Shown piece after piece: positions 11,163 through 17,995 of a DNA stretch of 41,965 nucleotides. A program made the position numbers and the translations under genes. Numbering within the stretch: position 1 is the stretch's first letter; the number at the start of each line of letters is the position of its first letter. The stretch comes from a bacterium (GTDB lineage Bacteria; Myxococcota_A; Bradymonadia; UBA7976; UBA1532): NCBI GenBank assembly GCA_030426085.1, contig JAUHYW010000084.1, positions 1 through 41,965 on the forward strand, in the 5' to 3' direction. The notes below the pieces were generated by a model. That model made no database searches. It had not been told where the DNA came from and saw only the letters and a list, made by a program, of their open reading frames with translations.

Positions 11163-11945
11163 GTGCTGATCGATCCCCACGCCAACCCCGGCGACCTCGA
11201 GCCCGACGCCTTCGCCAACGCCTGCCGCGACGCGGGGCTGGGGGCGGTGGTGGTCGCCTCCCGCCTGTCGACCCACCGGCTGGACGACCACCTCGCCGCG
11301 CTGAAGGCCGTGGGCCTCGTCGGCTTCGCCGGGGTCGAGGTGCCGCTGGACCGCGGCGCGCTCGTCGCCATCCCCACCGAGGACGGGCCGGCCTTCCGCG
11401 GGATGAAGTGGGGCAGCCTCACCTGGAGCGCCGAGATGGTGGCCGAGCGGCTCGGCGACTTCGACGGGCTGCTGATCTCGACCCACCCCTACCTGCGCGA
11501 AGGCGGGGCCGGGGCGATGGGCGACCGGATCTACATCCTCAAGGGCCTCGGCGGGGTGCAGACCCGCGTGGGCCGGGGCGAGCTGAGCTGGGACGCGATG
11601 GCCGATCGGGCCGCCGACCGCAAGAAGCTGGCCCGGCTGGGCAGCTCCGGCGGGGTGATCCAGCACCTCGGCGCGGCGGCCACCGTCATCGACGGCGACA
11701 TCGAGACCCAGGCCGATCTGGTCGAGGCGCTGCGGGACGGCTCGACGCTGGTCGTGGAGTTCGACGACCCCCGCGCCCCCCGTGATCGCCGCCCGCCCCG
11801 GCGAGAGCCGCGGCCCGAGCGGGGCGCGCGCGATCGGGACGACCGCCGGGGTCGGGGCCGTGATCGGGATCGGGGCGGCCGGGATCGAGGCGGCCGGGAT
11901 CGGGGCGGCCGCGGCCGCGGGTCCCGCCGACGGGACGACTCGTGA
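11163..11945 (+). CDS. PHP-like (metal-dependent phosphoesterase fold) protein with Arg/Asp/Gly-rich tail
   Basis: A 260-residue protein starting at GTG 11163, 8 bases after GGAG. The N-terminal half follows the layout of PHP-superfamily proteins (MLIDPHAN at the start, then AGLGAVVVASRLSTH, VGFAGVEVPL and LLISTHPYLREG), but only one His is present in the first motif where active members have HxH, so metal binding may be reduced. From about residue 202 the protein becomes a low-complexity tail of Arg, Asp and Gly ending RRRDDS, with RDRGG repeats encoded by three 15-bp DNA repeats. Such tails often bind RNA or are disordered; here that is inference. The stop overlaps the next GTG (GTGA). Confidence 0.6.
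   Translation: MLIDPHANPGDLEPDAFANACRDAGLGAVVVASRLSTHRLDDHLAALKAVGLVGFAGVEVPLDRGALVAIPTEDGPAFRGMKWGSLTWSAEMVAERLGDFDGLLISTHPYLREGGAGAMGDRIYILKGLGGVQTRVGRGELSWDAMADRAADRKKLARLGSSGGVIQHLGAAATVIDGDIETQADLVEALRDGSTLVVEFDDPRAPRDRRPPRREPRPERGARDRDDRRGRGRDRDRGGRDRGGRDRGGRGRGSRRRDDS
11866..11910 (+). repeat. Tandem 15-bp repeat coding RDRGG
   Basis: Three tandem copies of GGGATCGGGGCGGCC lie at 11866-11880, 11881-11895 (one mismatch) and 11896-11910. They are in frame and lengthen the Arg/Asp/Gly tail of the PHP-like protein. Slippage could change the copy number between strains without breaking the frame. Confidence 0.8.
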
Positions 11946-12601
11946 AGGCCCGCGCCGCGCTCGTAGCCGGGGCCGGCGCCCTCGGCCTGATCCTGCTGGC
12001 CGCGCCGGCCGAGGCGAACCGGTCGGGCATCATCGCCCGGGCCCAGGTCGGCTGCGGCGGCGGTGGATGTCACAGCGGCGGGGCGATGCCGGCCGTCGAG
12101 CTGCTCGGCCCGTCGAGCGTCGCTCCGGGCGGGGTGGCCGACTTCGTCGTGCGGGTCAGCGGCGGCCAGATGGCGGCCGGGGTCAACATCGAGGCCAGCG
12201 CGGGGCTGCTGGTGCCCGCCGACGGGCTCGCGGCGCGGGCGGGCCAGCTCGTGCACGCCGGCGACGCCCGGCCCTACACCGACGGCGCCGCCGAGTTCGC
12301 CTTCCAGTGGGAGGCGCCCGACGCGCCCGGTCAGGTCGACCTCTTCGTGGCGGCCAACAGCGTCGACAACAACTTCCAGCCCACCGGCGATCTGTGGGGG
12401 CTGGTCGCGTCGACGATCGCCGTCGGCGACGGCGTGGCCCCCGACGCGGGGCCTCCGCCCGACGGGGGCGCGGGCGGTGCGGGCGGTGGTGATGGCGGAG
12501 GCGGCGGCGACTCGGGCTGCGCCCAGCGACCCGGCGTGCCTCCGGGCGGCGGGGCCCTGGCGCTCCTGCTCTTCGGCGGGCTGGCGCTGCGCCGCCGCTG
12601 A
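11942..12601 (+). CDS. Secreted choice-of-anchor (Reeler-like) protein with MYXO-CTERM-like tail
   Basis: A 219-residue exported protein. It has a signal peptide (about 1-25, ending AEA), then GCGGGGCHSGG (38-48), a Cys/His motif that precedes the beta-sandwich in choice-of-anchor V/Reeler-like proteins, then beta-rich sequence to about 165, a Gly/Asp linker, and a C-terminal Gly-Cys followed by Pro/Gly, a hydrophobic helix and RRR. That last arrangement is the MYXO-CTERM sorting pattern, in which the Cys is thought to be processed for surface anchoring. Start GTG 11942 overlaps the upstream TGA by three bases, so translation is probably coupled to the PHP-like gene. Binding partner and role are unknown. 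Confidence 0.72.
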   Translation: MKARAALVAGAGALGLILLAAPAEANRSGIIARAQVGCGGGGCHSGGAMPAVELLGPSSVAPGGVADFVVRVSGGQMAAGVNIEASAGLLVPADGLAARAGQLVHAGDARPYTDGAAEFAFQWEAPDAPGQVDLFVAANSVDNNFQPTGDLWGLVASTIAVGDGVAPDAGPPPDGGAGGAGGGDGGGGGDSGCAQRPGVPPGGGALALLLFGGLALRRR

Positions 12602-12652: not shown

Positions 12653-14365
12653 TTATCGGCCGCCCGGCGGAACCGGCGGGGTCTCGGGCGGCGCCGGCCG
12701 CTCGTAGACCGACATGAGCTGCACCCCATCCAGGAAGAAGCCGGCCACCGGCCAGTCGGTCCCGTAGGCCCGCCACACGTCCAGCTCCTCGGGCAGCTTC
12801 TCCCGCTGATCGTGATACACCGCCCAGTTCGAGTAGGGCGCCGTCCAGTCCCCGGTGTAGCGCACGTCGCCCCGCAGCAGGCCATCGCGCTTGTAGGCGT
12901 CGATGGCCCACTTCGTCGCCTTGTGCCAGAAGACCATCGCCCGCTTCTCGACCAGCCGGTCGATGTCATCGACCACCGTCACCGTGCTGTAGCCCCAGAA
13001 GTTACGGGGCATGCCCAGCTCGGCCGCGCCCGGCGGGCCGCCGGCCAGCGCGTTGTAATACGCCGGACCGTGCGCGCCGTAGGTCACCGTCGCCCACGCC
13101 GCCGGCAGCAGCATCAGCGCCGACAGCGCGCCCATGCGCAGCGCGAGCGCCCGTCCTTCGAACGCCGGCCAGATCCCCCGAGCGATGCGCTCGAGGCCGA
13201 CGCCGCCCAGCACCGCGAAGAACGGCATCGCCGTCATCCAATGCTTGGTGCCGCCGAAGATCGGGGTGTCGGGCAGCGCGATGACCAGGAACGGCACCGC
13301 CAGACTGAACAGCAGGAAGACCTCGGCGCTGCGCCGGTCGGGCGCCTCGGCGCCATCCTCCGGGGCGTCGCGCCAACCACGCCACGCGGCCCGCGCCGTC
13401 ACGGCCACGCCGATCCCGCCCGCGATCAGGATGCCCACCGGAATGGTCAGCGCGCTGAAAACGAACGGGAAGTGCACCGGGAACGGCGGCTTGAAATACA
13501 GGAAGCCGAGGTAGTCCACCGGGTAGTGCACATGGCGGGCGTGGAACCGGATGTAGAAGCCGAGCCGATCGACGGTGTCGTACCAGAGCCAGGGCCAGTG
13601 GGCGAAGAAGACCACCGCCCCCAGCACGACCATGCTGCCCGCGATCCAGCCGTAATAGGTCAGCGGCCCCCGCTGCCCCTCCGGCGCTCGCAGCGCACCG
13701 TGGCGCCGCTTCCAGACCCAGCCGTCGACGATCGCCACCGCCAGCAGGGTGAACGGCACGAAGAACGTATTGAGCTTGGTCGCCAGCCCCAGCCCCAGCG
13801 CGATGCCGCTGGCGATGGCCCACCGCCGGCTGCGCGCGCCGCGGAAGAAGCAGTACGCGATCAGCAAGGTCATGAAGGTCACCGGCGCGTCGAAGCACGC
13901 CAGGTGCCCGTGGAAGAAGACCCGGGGCATGAACGCCAGACACAGCGCGGCCCCGACCCCGGCGGCGCGGCTGCGGATCATCACCCCGAGCAGATGGGCC
14001 AGCCACAGCGCCAGCGCCGCCATCAGCATGGTCGGGAAGCGCCACGCCGTCATGTGGTGCTCGAACAGCCCCAGCCGGTCGTGCAGGATCCGGTGGCTGA
14101 GCCCGAAGAGGCTCTTCATCAGCACCGGGTGCTCGTGGTTGTACTCGAAGCCTCGATCGATCTCGGCCCGGGAGAACGACTCGACCTCGGGATCGAGCAG
14201 CCCGAGCCACCAGTCGGCGGCCTTGTCGGCGGCGAAGAAGTAGAAGCTCTCGTCCCGGGGCACGCCGACGTCGAGGCTCGTGCCCACCAGGAACGCCAGA
14301 TAAGCCGCGGTCAGGATCAGCCCGATGAGGTGATCCACCCGGCCCGGCCGGTTCAGCGGCGGCAT
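12653..14365 (-). CDS. GT39-type (ArnT/PMT-like) membrane glycosyltransferase
   Basis: A 570-residue polytopic membrane protein of the GT-C class. After the first helix (about 12-30) it has the acidic DE pair in VPRDESFYFF (Asp38, Glu39), the catalytic-site mark of family 39 transferases that use polyprenyl-phosphate sugars on the periplasmic side. HEHPVLMKSLFGLSHR and many hydrophobic helices to about residue 450 follow, then a soluble C-terminal region. It would add a sugar to a protein or lipid in the envelope; the acceptor is unknown. The ATG overlaps the upstream gene's TGA (ATGA), so it is made together with the anchored protein at 14365-15375. Confidence 0.8.
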   Translation of the reverse strand: MPPLNRPGRVDHLIGLILTAAYLAFLVGTSLDVGVPRDESFYFFAADKAADWWLGLLDPEVESFSRAEIDRGFEYNHEHPVLMKSLFGLSHRILHDRLGLFEHHMTAWRFPTMLMAALALWLAHLLGVMIRSRAAGVGAALCLAFMPRVFFHGHLACFDAPVTFMTLLIAYCFFRGARSRRWAIASGIALGLGLATKLNTFFVPFTLLAVAIVDGWVWKRRHGALRAPEGQRGPLTYYGWIAGSMVVLGAVVFFAHWPWLWYDTVDRLGFYIRFHARHVHYPVDYLGFLYFKPPFPVHFPFVFSALTIPVGILIAGGIGVAVTARAAWRGWRDAPEDGAEAPDRRSAEVFLLFSLAVPFLVIALPDTPIFGGTKHWMTAMPFFAVLGGVGLERIARGIWPAFEGRALALRMGALSALMLLPAAWATVTYGAHGPAYYNALAGGPPGAAELGMPRNFWGYSTVTVVDDIDRLVEKRAMVFWHKATKWAIDAYKRDGLLRGDVRYTGDWTAPYSNWAVYHDQREKLPEELDVWRAYGTDWPVAGFFLDGVQLMSVYERPAPPETPPVPPGGR

Positions 14366-15375
14366 CAGGCCCCCTCCGGCGCCGGGCCGCGCACCGTCGC
14401 GTCGATGCACAGGTGCCCGTCGGTGGTCGCCTCGGTGTCGACCTCGATGGTCAGCCCGTCGCCCGCCGGGCCGTCGAGCGGCAGCCGCCAGCGGCGCCAA
14501 CCCTTCTCCGGGGGCACCGGCTGGGCCCCGATCACCGGCCCCTCGACGCCGCCCCGCCGCACGCGCAGCGTCGCCGGCCGGGTCCGGGTCTCCTTCCGGG
14601 TGTGATCGGTGATGACCTTGTCGGTGAACCCGTGATCGATCACCAGCGAGGCCCCGGCGGGCGCCGTCGGCCAGTGCAGGCGCAGCGTCTTGCCCGCCAT
14701 CGGATGGAACCAGATGCACCGCCGGGGGAAGTCACCGATGACCCGCACGTCGCGGCTGACGTTGAGCCACGGATCGAGCCCGCAGTGGGGATCGCGCCGC
14801 CGCTGGCGATGCCGCCGCGAGATGGGCTGCGCCAGGCAGCGGCGGGTCTTCTCGGGCCCCTTGCTCACCTTGCAGTGCCAGCCGCGGCCGTCCCAGAAGT
14901 CGCACCGCTCGACCCGCCGACCGCTGCGGCTCACCCGGGCCTGCTCCAGATCGGCCCGCAGATCACCGACGACCCGCTCACCGCCGACCTCGACCAGATC
15001 CAGCGTCACCTCGCCGAAGGCGCGCCGCTCGAGGCGGGTGTGCCCCGAGGGCAGATCGTCGGCGTCCCGGCCGAAGGCGCCCATCAGCCACACCCGGCGG
15101 AAGCGGCTCAGATCGGCCGCCTCCACATCGGTCAGGTGGAAGCCGGGCAGGCCGTGCATGAACAGGCGCCCCTCCCCCGCCCAGTACGGGGCCCAGGCCA
15201 CGCCATCGCCCGGCTCGAGCCCGGCCCGGATCGCCTCGGTCGCCGCCTGCCAGTCGCCCGGCTCGGGCACCGCCGCCCGCTGACGCAGCACCACGACCGC
15301 CGCCAGCACGACCGCCAGCGGCGCCAGCCACCAGGGATTCAACCGCCACCGGCGCGCTTCGGCAGTGTCGCTCAT
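14365..15375 (-). CDS. Membrane-anchored partner of the glycosyltransferase, unknown family
   Basis: A 336-residue protein with one N-terminal hydrophobic helix (about 14-31) and a large domain, probably periplasmic. It has a mixed alpha/beta first half (VWLMGAFGRDADDLP, RRAFGEVTLDLVEV) and a beta-rich C-terminal region (about 200-330) that looks like a carbohydrate-binding or jelly-roll fold. Several Cys and a basic stretch (SRRHRQRRRD) lie in the middle. No motif identifies an enzyme. The chosen ATG at 15375 has GAGG just upstream; a start at 15390 is also possible. The 4-base overlap with the glycosyltransferase gene suggests a shared job, such as presenting or binding its substrate. Confidence 0.65.
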   Translation of the reverse strand: MSDTAEARRWRLNPWWLAPLAVVLAAVVVLRQRAAVPEPGDWQAATEAIRAGLEPGDGVAWAPYWAGEGRLFMHGLPGFHLTDVEAADLSRFRRVWLMGAFGRDADDLPSGHTRLERRAFGEVTLDLVEVGGERVVGDLRADLEQARVSRSGRRVERCDFWDGRGWHCKVSKGPEKTRRCLAQPISRRHRQRRRDPHCGLDPWLNVSRDVRVIGDFPRRCIWFHPMAGKTLRLHWPTAPAGASLVIDHGFTDKVITDHTRKETRTRPATLRVRRGGVEGPVIGAQPVPPEKGWRRWRLPLDGPAGDGLTIEVDTEATTDGHLCIDATVRGPAPEGA

Positions 15376-15460
15376 CGGCCTCGGGACCATCGGATCATCG
15401 GGGGCCTTCTACCACGAATGCCGCACCCCGCGAACCCGTGCGCGCGCCGCCCGGCCCCTG

Positions 15461-15597: not shown

Positions 15598-16350
15598 ATG
15601 TTGCGTTGGATGATGGCCTCGGTGGCCCTGCTGGCCCTGAGCGGCTGCCCCGGATTCGGTGACAAGACGCTCGCCGAGCTCGAGGGCATCGGCGGCGATG
15701 TCACCTATCACGCCGACATCCGCCCGATCATCGAAGCCCGCTGCTTCCCATGCCACACCGACCCGGCGAAGTTCGGGGCGCCCAACCCGCTGGCGAACTA
15801 CGAGCAGGCCGCGGCCTTCGCCAATCGGATGGACATCCGGGTGGTACAGGAGGGCACGATGCCCCCCGGCGGTGGGGTCCTGGACGAAGAGAAGGCCCTG
15901 ATCAGCGCCTGGGTCCAGGCCGGCGCGCCCGAGGGCACCGCGCTCGACATGGGCCCGCCCGACCTCGGGCCCGACATGGCGCCCGATCCGGAGCCGGACA
16001 TGGGCCCCGAGGTCGACATGGACCCCGAAGCCCCCGACATGGCGCCCCCGCCCCCGCCGACCTGGGACGACGACGTGCAGCCGGTCATGGACGCGAGCTG
16101 CGCGTTCCCCGGGTGCCACGGCGGCGCGATGCCCCAGTCGAACCTCGACCTCACCACCTACGCCGGCTTCCTCGCCGGCGGCTTCGGCGGCGACCTGACC
16201 GGCGACGGCGACCCGGCCCGCAGCGGGCTCGTCGATCGCCTGCGCGCCCGGGACGGCCTGCCGCTGATGCCCCAGGGCGGCCCCCCGCTCGACGAGCCCG
16301 TCATCGAGATGATCGAAGCCTGGATCGCCGCCGGTGCCCCGGAGAACTGA
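15598..16350 (+). CDS. Lipoprotein with two c-type cytochrome domains
   Basis: A 250-residue lipoprotein (signal with LLALSGC, lipid Cys17). Domain 1 (about 38-112) has CFPCH (Cys49, Cys52, His53) and a candidate distal Met in GTMPPGG. An acidic Asp/Met/Pro linker with repeated DMGP/DMAP (117-155) leads to domain 2 (about 158-250), where the heme site is CAFPGCH (168-174), a CX4CH spacing, with a candidate distal Met in LMPQGG. Both domains look like small class-I cytochromes that pass electrons at the cell surface or in the periplasm. The stop is 4 bases before the start of the heme-porin gene, so the two are almost certainly one operon and probably exchange electrons. Confidence 0.78.
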   Translation: MLRWMMASVALLALSGCPGFGDKTLAELEGIGGDVTYHADIRPIIEARCFPCHTDPAKFGAPNPLANYEQAAAFANRMDIRVVQEGTMPPGGGVLDEEKALISAWVQAGAPEGTALDMGPPDLGPDMAPDPEPDMGPEVDMDPEAPDMAPPPPPTWDDDVQPVMDASCAFPGCHGGAMPQSNLDLTTYAGFLAGGFGGDLTGDGDPARSGLVDRLRARDGLPLMPQGGPPLDEPVIEMIEAWIAAGAPEN

Positions 16351-16354
16351 CGCC

Positions 16355-17995
16355 GTGAAGATCTCATCCGCGCTGCTGCCCGCCGCCTTCGCCCTCGCCG
16401 TGCTCTGCGCCGCCCAGGCGGCCTACGCGCTGCCCCAGTTCGCCGTGCGCTCGGCCCGGGCCTGCGACACCTGCCACGTCGATCCCACCGGGTGGGTCGA
16501 CCCCGAGGTCGCGCTGCGCAAGTGCAGCCTCAACTGCAACACCTGCCACGTCAGCCCCAGCGGGGCCGGCCTGCGCAACGAGTCGGGGCTGTACTACGGG
16601 CGGCAGACGCTGCCCATGTTCGGCGACCGCCCGGCGGACAACGCCTACCGGCCGGTGACCCTCTCGGCCCCGGCCGGCGGCGCCTCCCAGCCCGCCGGCT
16701 CCCAGCCCGCCGGCTCCCAGCCCGCGGCCCCGACGTCCCAGCCGGCCGCCGCCTCCCAGCCGGCCGCCGCCTCTCAGCCCGCCGCCGCCGCGTCCCAGCC
16801 GATGGCCGCCGGATCCCAGCCGATGGCCGCCGGATCCCAGCCGGTCGGCGCCGCGCCGGCCAGCCAGCCCGCCGGCCCGCCCCGGGGCCCGGACAAGTCC
16901 ATCAACTACCCCCAGTACGTGCCCGGACCGGGCACCGCCGGGCGCTACGGCGGCATCGAGCCCCACCCCGACTTCCAGCTCGGCGCCGATCTGCGGATGA
17001 TGCTCTACGTGCCCACCGACACCGACAGCCCCCGGGCCCCGGCCCAGGAGGTGTCCGTCTTCCCGATGCAGGCCGATCTCTACCTGGCCTACCGCCCGTA
17101 CAACCCCGGCGAACTCAACGAAGGCCGCCTCACCCTGCTGCTGAACACCGGCTTCCTCGGATCGCGGGGCGAGCAGTTCGATGGCATCGGCGACCGCTTC
17201 TTCGTGCGGGAGTACTACGCGATGTACCACGACCTGCCGTACCAGATGTACGTGCGGGCCGGCCGCTTCCTGCCCGCCTGGGGCTGGCGCACCGACGACC
17301 ACACCCCCTACGTCCGCCAGGGTCAGCTCGTGCTGGGGCAGCCCTTCGACCACGAGCGGCAGATCACCGGGGTCGAGGTCGGCATCAACCCCAACTACTT
17401 CTACGCTCACTTCTCCCTGTTCAACGCGCCCGACTTCCCGATGACCGTGGCCAACTTCGACGAGCACGGCGCCGAGCCGTTCTTCACCGCCGACGGGGCC
17501 TACGGCGCAGCGCTGGCGGCCGGCTGGCGCGATCTGGCGTGGCAGCTCGGCGGCGGCCTGATCTACGGCAACCGGGGGGCCATCGGCGACCCCGACGAGG
17601 CTCAGAAGTACAACCAGGTCGCGGTCAGCGCCGAGTGGGCCCTCAACTTCGACGTGCTCGTCGGCGAGACCGATCTGCCTCTGATCTACCTCGGCCAGTA
17701 CACGCTCAACCATCAGGCCCCCGAGGTCGGCCGCAACAGCACCGGCCTCGCCGCGATGCACGAGCTGGACTACCTGATCACGCAAGGCATCAACGCCGTG
17801 GTGCGCTACGACTGGGCCGACAGCGACGTCGAGCTGGCCTTCGACAGCCGCCACCGGCTGCAGGTCGGCTTCGACGTGCACCCCTACACCTATCTCGAGC
17901 TGAACGTGCGCTACCGCCACAACTGGACCAACACCGAGGAGCGCAGCGACTTCGGCGGCGACGAGGTGGTCCTCATCGTGCACGGCTGGTACTGA
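16355..17995 (+). CDS. Outer-membrane porin fused to an N-terminal di-heme cytochrome domain
   Basis: A 546-residue exported protein starting at GTG 16355 (GGAG upstream). Order: signal peptide (about 1-26), two c-type heme sites CDTCH (37-41) and CNTCH (61-65) within the pattern ALPQFAVRSARACDTCH and HVSPSGAGLRN, a Ser-Gln-Pro-Ala repeat linker (about 108-178), then a beta-barrel-like region with alternating aromatic and polar strands (YLAYRPYN, RFFVREYYAMYHDLP) ending in an aromatic residue (GWY), as outer-membrane proteins do. The plan recalls Cyc2-like cytochrome-porins, which move electrons through the outer membrane, although Cyc2 has one heme and no long linker. The partner is the upstream heme lipoprotein. 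Electron-conduit function is inference; a simple porin with an N-terminal heme domain is the alternative. Confidence 0.72.
   Translation: MKISSALLPAAFALAVLCAAQAAYALPQFAVRSARACDTCHVDPTGWVDPEVALRKCSLNCNTCHVSPSGAGLRNESGLYYGRQTLPMFGDRPADNAYRPVTLSAPAGGASQPAGSQPAGSQPAAPTSQPAAASQPAAASQPAAAASQPMAAGSQPMAAGSQPVGAAPASQPAGPPRGPDKSINYPQYVPGPGTAGRYGGIEPHPDFQLGADLRMMLYVPTDTDSPRAPAQEVSVFPMQADLYLAYRPYNPGELNEGRLTLLLNTGFLGSRGEQFDGIGDRFFVREYYAMYHDLPYQMYVRAGRFLPAWGWRTDDHTPYVRQGQLVLGQPFDHERQITGVEVGINPNYFYAHFSLFNAPDFPMTVANFDEHGAEPFFTADGAYGAALAAGWRDLAWQLGGGLIYGNRGAIGDPDEAQKYNQVAVSAEWALNFDVLVGETDLPLIYLGQYTLNHQAPEVGRNSTGLAAMHELDYLITQGINAVVRYDWADSDVELAFDSRHRLQVGFDVHPYTYLELNVRYRHNWTNTEERSDFGGDEVVLIVHGWY
16681..16875 (+). 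repeat. In-frame SQPA-type repeats in the heme-porin linker
   Basis: About ten imperfect repeats coding Ser-Gln-Pro plus Ala/Gly, including near-identical neighbours such as CCGATGGCCGCCGGATCCCA twice in a row. The repeats separate the heme domain from the barrel. Copy-number change would keep the frame because the units are multiples of three. Confidence 0.8.

Follow-up and report, generated by a model that had tools for sequence, protein, structure and literature searches.

The window, the whole 41,965-nucleotide stretch analysed here, carries two forward-strand open reading frames, P0001 and P0002, at the places where the earlier note had put them and separated by 4 bp. An independent gene call also returned the P0002 start at 16355. 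The pair and its parts read as follows.

15598–16350, forward strand: P0001, heme lipoprotein of 250 aa, with the lipobox LSGC and Cys17
16355–17995, forward strand: P0002, two-heme cytochrome-porin fusion of 546 aa, with a GTG start
16463–16549, forward strand: heme domain of P0002, with CDTCH (residues 37–41), Cys57 and CNTCH (61–65); CX3CX2CH; invariant in 45 of 45 aligned proteins
16628–16921, forward strand: Ser-Gln-Pro rich linker of P0002, with ten SQP units
16922–17995, forward strand: predicted outer-membrane beta-barrel of P0002, with an aromatic Tyr end and conserved FPM(Q) and DHT-x3-R motifs

P0001 opens with a lipobox read directly from its sequence (MLRWMMASVALLALSGC). The first heme site, CFPCH at residue 49 (C49, C52 and H53), is a canonical CxxCH, and Met88 in the motif MPPGG is a candidate axial ligand for it. 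The second, CAFPGCH at residue 168 (C168, C173 and H174), has CX4CH spacing, which occurs in other c-type cytochromes. Of the two hemes first attributed to this lipoprotein, then, one has a canonical site and the other an extended one, and two hemes are likely. The Pfam model PSCyt1 overlaps the CX4CH site (E 1.8e-8). In the first region, PccH matched at 3.1e-6, above the family cut-off with only 22 residues covered, and Cytochrome_CBB3 at 1.7e-5, below its cut-off. The second domain weakly resembles FoxE, a bihemic cytochrome of Rhodobacter, at a level that is not significant (E 0.023); FoxE itself is not known to be a lipoprotein or to have a porin as its partner.

The pair recurs in other genomes, where the earlier note had proposed to look for it. 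A scan of genome contigs recovered L009 (79% identity over the best segment), L010 (51%) and a fragment, L011; both L009 and L010 carry a lipoprotein-porin pair as in the window. Within the phylum, 63 of 377 genomes gave matches at E ≤ 0.001, and no relative turned up in viral contigs or plasmids. The source genome (10.1 Mb, 178 contigs) encodes three full cytochrome-porins: that of the window, a second two-heme protein, which is accompanied on contig 20 by a separate CxxCH lipoprotein, and a one-heme protein, which on contig 44 has a Rieske protein beside it. From 83 context stretches we assembled 47 proteins with two CxxCH sites and 35 with one, the window's own included (to judge by their lengths, L052 and L053 duplicate the contigs of L009 and L010). 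Alignment A3 holds 45 of the 47 two-heme proteins, after L088 and L094 were dropped as cut by contig ends, A4 holds the 35 one-heme proteins, and A8 holds 14 Cyc2-like proteins; L057 and L128, which have no CxxCH in frame, and about a dozen weaker matches were left out. The lipobox Cys and first CxxCH of P0001 and both CxxCH sites of P0002 are kept in relatives, which excludes a chance origin of these motifs. A3 and A4 are clearly homologous (hhalign 100%, E 4.7e-62; barrel only, E 3.3e-51), with the single heme of A4 aligned to heme 2.

P0002 begins, by reading, with a signal peptide, and the two CxxCH sites, SQP linker and aromatic C-terminus first described for it are all legible, the C-terminal ~350 residues finishing in HGWY. 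Across A3, positions C37, C40, H41, C57, C61, C64 and H65 are invariant, and the two CxxCH sites are 24, 25 or 29 residues apart. From the heme domain onward, all 45 aligned two-heme proteins have exactly five Cys, and 27 of the 35 one-heme proteins have just the two heme Cys. The fifth, C57, is thus an invariant unpaired Cys ahead of heme site 2 (CX3CX2CH). With five Cys in every aligned protein, an intrachain disulfide through C57 is ruled out; a P0002–P0001 disulfide in the window was likewise dropped, because the lipid and the two heme sites use all Cys of P0001. C57 might ligate a heme, provide a third anchor or form an intermolecular link.

The linker, by comparison, is poorly kept. The stretch from R92 to P205 measures 113 aa in the window and anything from 32 to 141 aa in relatives, and this variation argues that the SQP repeat is decoration and not essential. 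It is nearly absent in L010 and reduced to near nothing in L055, for which reason we dropped it as a functional element. The SQP linker is evidently lineage-specific and dispensable.

Pfam and NCBIfam held no model that matched P0002 at cut-off. A search of solved structures with P0002 gave nothing convincing (best E 0.079), and no porin appeared among the solved-structure matches of P0002 or alignments A1, A3, A4 and A8. Over ~60 residues, the N-terminal diheme stretch bears a weak likeness (E 8.5e-5) to 6qvm, whose label reads multiheme cytochrome cf; this match carries little weight, as it covers the signal peptide and heme motifs.

The case for a barrel is built on homology and amphipathicity, since AlphaFold models of full P0002 and of the barrel alone, computed with three sequences each, reached pLDDT values of only 28.0 and 27.7. 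Over residues 196–546, beta-type amphipathicity exceeds that of shuffled sequences (z 3.7). There are 21 amphipathic segments against 14.8 ± 2.4 in 200 shuffles, whose maximum was 21 as well; these segments are not a count of strands and are not to be set against the 16-stranded barrel of the Cyc2 definition. In Pfam, OMP_b-brl was hit by four of the 35 one-heme proteins (best 8e-7), BBP2 by one of them (0.005), and OMP_b-brl again, at a weak level, by two of the 45 two-heme proteins (best 0.017). The last residue of complete members is mostly aromatic or Leu, and the homology to Cyc2-like proteins set out below is a further argument. The earlier note had named a failed barrel prediction, or a known family with a role unrelated to electrons, as grounds for abandoning its proposal. 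The sequence evidence favours the barrel, and no family of the second kind matched P0002 or its relatives above cut-off. We therefore infer a beta-barrel fold and a membrane location for P0002.

Cyc2, a porin fused to one heme, is among the simplest known routes by which electrons from iron enter a cell. P0002 shares with it a signal peptide and a short N-terminal heme domain of c type, which starts with AxPxFA and leads into a porin. The definition given in part of PMC8406198 comprises the motif AXPXFAR[Q/K][T/Y] before CXXCH, PXL 4 aa past CXXCH, a single heme, a predicted 16-strand porin and a length of at least 365 aa with the porin domain. Passages of PMC8406198 and PMC10734462 likewise describe Cyc2 as a fused monoheme cytochrome-porin, and its phylogeny, including Deltaproteobacteria, is treated in PMC12442345, consulted in part. 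P0002 reads ALPQFAVRSARACDTCH, in which AxPxFA is present and R[Q/K][T/Y] is absent; none of the heme-bearing family ORFs checked carries the strict motif. In place of PXL, P0002 has CHVDPTGW and CHVSPSGAGLR. Two CxxCH sites, instead of the one of Cyc2, are present in P0002 and in 45 of 45 A3 rows, as the earlier note had said for P0002. At 546 aa, P0002 exceeds the minimum length, and its barrel is homologous to that of the one-heme family and, through that family, to Cyc2-like barrels. P0002 as Cyc2 proper was rejected on the defining motif.

Cyc2-like proteins for comparison came from a search of the 377 genomes with one TTC-codon DNA form of the Cyc2 motif. It matched in 22 genomes, with 0 matches in the source genome, and we chose 14 proteins with FAR[Q/K] and PXL. 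At full length, the one-heme family aligned with them at E 2.6e-17 over 332 columns and the two-heme family at E 3.6e-11 over 356 columns, so that both belong to the broad class of fused cytochrome-porins, a c-type heme domain and a porin homologous end to end. With the barrel only, the one-heme family gave E 3e-10, against E 0.6–0.71 for reversed controls and E 0.39–0.93 for ten column shuffles. The corresponding two-heme match was weak (60.6%, E 8.3e-5; reversed controls E 0.15–0.18) and barely beats the reversed control of another pair, A3 against reversed A4 (52%, E 1.4e-4). The link of the two-heme proteins to Cyc2 therefore rests on the one-heme bridge and the heme domain. The resemblance to Cyc2-type fusions proposed earlier is in this way borne out as homology, by profile alignment through the one-heme branch. 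The two-heme proteins differ from Cyc2 in having two hemes, 24–29 residues apart, an extra invariant Cys and an adjacent heme lipoprotein, and P0002 is without the R[Q/K][T/Y] and PxL motifs of Cyc2. Hence, P0002 is a new two-heme form of the fused cytochrome-porin, a distant relative of Cyc2 that probably works similarly, and not Cyc2 by definition.

A tree of the barrel only was built from 94 rows and 323 columns by a quick search with no bootstraps, the Cyc2-like rows serving as its root. It placed all 45 two-heme proteins on one branch inside the one-heme proteins, with an SH-aLRT of 93 against a tool mark of 95. In the one-heme pair nearest to this branch, L093 and L108, the partner is a CxxCH protein that shares the MPPGGG motif. 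The second heme would thus have been gained once, on a one-heme cytochrome-porin ancestor, and perhaps lengthens the relay.

Other outer-membrane conduits resemble the pair in general plan. MtrAB, MtoAB, PioAB and PCC3 also combine a porin with c-type cytochromes at the outer membrane (strand and heme numbers for MtrAB and MtoAB from part of PMC8406198; PCC3 from part of PMC5566968). Unlike these, P0002 has only two hemes, fused to the porin, with no decaheme insert. The MtrAB type, as described in that part of PMC8406198, is a separate decaheme cytochrome in a 26-strand porin, which does not describe P0002. No separate multiheme gene adjoins P0002, and Pfam scans of P0001, P0002 and family members gave no match to MtrB_PioB. 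Among the open PMC full-text articles searched, no title or abstract opening described a fused cytochrome-porin with two hemes, or one paired with a Rieske protein or a lipoprotein.

The dedicated heme lipoprotein seen in the window proved to be a conserved partner. Gene calls came from a script, which left two loci uncalled and returned no neighbour on either flank for three. A heme motif occurs in the −1 gene at 33 of 45 two-heme loci, or 33 of 36 when that gene lies on the same strand. The frequency falls off at other upstream positions (6/40 at −2, 2/32 at −3 and 4/25 at −4) and is lower downstream (10/40 at +1, 6/36 at +2, 1/29 at +3 and 0/19 at +4). A partner-profile CxxCH match lies within 1.5 kb at 40 of 47 loci, on the opposite strand in five (L072, L073, L074, L081 and L083). 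Among the seven profile misses, a CxxCH gene is still adjacent in L051 (upstream) and in L064 and L085 (downstream), and L065 has only 390 bp of upstream sequence. L068, L069 and L079 have room on the contig and no adjacent heme partner. In 34 partner lipoproteins, C49, C52 and H53 are invariant and the lipid Cys17 and M88/MPP nearly so, which suggests a His/Met heme. Separately, L078:1894-4998 encodes a 1034-aa protein with a lipobox, at least six CxxCH sites and a CX4CH site, which follows a two-heme cytochrome-porin, and a similar protein occurs in L075.

In the one-heme relatives, the partner is exchanged. We compared 30 same-strand genes directly upstream; the Pfam results are tallies without member names, and the class at each locus comes from motif patterns and a reading of the sequences. 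Pfam returned Rieske in 6 (best 3.4e-28), PSCyt1 in 7, Copper-bind in 4 (1.2e-8), Cytochrome_CBB3 in 4, Cytochrom_C in 2 and PEGA in 2. By motif and reading, 26 of the 30 carry a redox site: 6 Rieske (two of them also with CxxCH), 4 cupredoxin, 6 CX4CH, 6 CX3CH (putative heme) and 4 CxxCH. The remaining four are those of L109, truncated by the start of its contig, of L101 and L124, which show no redox motif, and of L102, where the longer frame has CX4CH. In many cases the partner and porin genes share 4 bp. Across the tree, partner type tracks clade, with cupredoxins near L120, L107, L115 and L123, Rieske proteins in the clade of L021, CX3CH around L114, CX4CH around L098 and CxxCH with the two-heme clade. 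Downstream, Cytochrome_CBB3 matches 13 of 27 genes and YceI 6 of 27; the YceI-like genes, like a HupE/UreJ gene, do not obviously fit respiration. The swapping of partners among three electron-carrier chemistries is the best evidence here for a role in electron transfer and would be difficult to account for otherwise.

Several loci in this set have features of their own. L021:3526-5935 (contig 44 of the source genome) encodes a Tat-type Rieske [2Fe-2S] protein that overlaps a one-heme cytochrome-porin by 4 bp, followed by a YceI gene, and the order Rieske, one-heme porin, YceI repeats in L125 and L118. L124 and L101 have ORFs of more than 1100 aa with repeated CxxCH domains ~1.2 kb upstream of the one-heme porins. 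At L022:7197-9728 (contig 9 of the source genome), the same heme domain (YARRTGQECGHCHRNPQGGGPRN) heads a long ORF with a second CxxCH and no porin part; it may therefore be a module that moves between proteins.

We consider it probable that the gene pair is a device for moving electrons across the outer membrane, with uptake the favoured direction. P0002 would be an outer-membrane porin whose N-terminal di-heme domain lies where the barrel opens to the periplasm, an arrangement also proposed for Cyc2, and P0001 its cytochrome c partner anchored in the same membrane. Electrons would pass between a redox compound from outside, at or inside the barrel, the two hemes of P0002 and the heme or hemes of the lipoprotein, which would connect to soluble periplasmic electron carriers. 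Cupredoxins, Rieske proteins and His/Met cytochromes generally have high potentials. Because the partner types are of this kind, the pair more probably takes up electrons from an external donor, Fe(II) for example, than reduces metals. Cyc2 with rusticyanin is a precedent for electron uptake (PMC10654088, in part). Near the pair in the window, no inner-membrane or oxidase gene was recognised and nothing suggests a respiratory operon.

The anatomy of such a conduit would suit either direction, and the weak 6qvm resemblance (a short match) could be taken to favour export to an external acceptor, be it a metal oxide, a quinone or a partner cell. The high-potential partner types (cupredoxin, Rieske and the MPP that suggests a His/Met heme) and homology to an iron oxidase, Cyc2, make export quite unlikely. 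The barrel might instead import a metal or organic ligand that the hemes and lipoprotein reduce, oxidise or gate for assimilation. Pairs of a lipoprotein and a barrel are typical of uptake systems such as SusCD, PSCyt1 domains are not necessarily respiratory, one one-heme member weakly matches the LbtU siderophore porin model (E 0.033), and single HupE/UreJ and NEAT matches occur among the downstream neighbours. However, the partners are interchangeable electron carriers (heme, 2Fe-2S and Cu) with no transport domain in common, cytochromes lie downstream of many one-heme members, and Pfam found no TonB-type plug domain or transporter match. We judge such a redox-assisted importer unlikely. That the hemes are structural, sensory or detoxifying (of peroxide or NO, for example) in an otherwise ordinary porin is highly improbable: the invariant unpaired Cys near heme 2 could ligate a catalytic or sensory heme, but partner exchange among three redox chemistries would be left unexplained.

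For an electron conduit, the family allows a wider and more tentative proposal, which may well not hold in full. It might be a phylum-wide superfamily in which one scaffold is coupled to a cytochrome, a Rieske protein or a cupredoxin, and the two-heme clade, with its single gain and an unpaired Cys serving as an unusual heme-2 ligand or third anchor (CX3CX2CH), might be a minimal two-heme outer-membrane wire. The two-heme clade, its conserved lipoprotein partner and the partner swaps would then throw light on the evolution of such conduits and on their connection to the periplasm. They would also yield new markers of electron exchange for a large group on which the searched literature has little, and a small, expressible system in which to measure electron transfer across the outer membrane.

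The surroundings of the pair are partly kept. Upstream, on the minus strand and divergent to the pair, a mannosyltransferase-like gene and a companion of unknown family occupy 12653–15390, a position that both keep in L009 and L010. A response regulator and an acyl-carrier-type protein lie downstream. Further upstream in the window, 11942–12601 encodes a protein with a signal-like start, a CGGGGCH (CX4CH) motif and a GG-hydrophobic-RRR tail that resembles a C-terminal sorting signal; it has no Pfam match, and L009 has a close copy of it in the vicinity of the pair.
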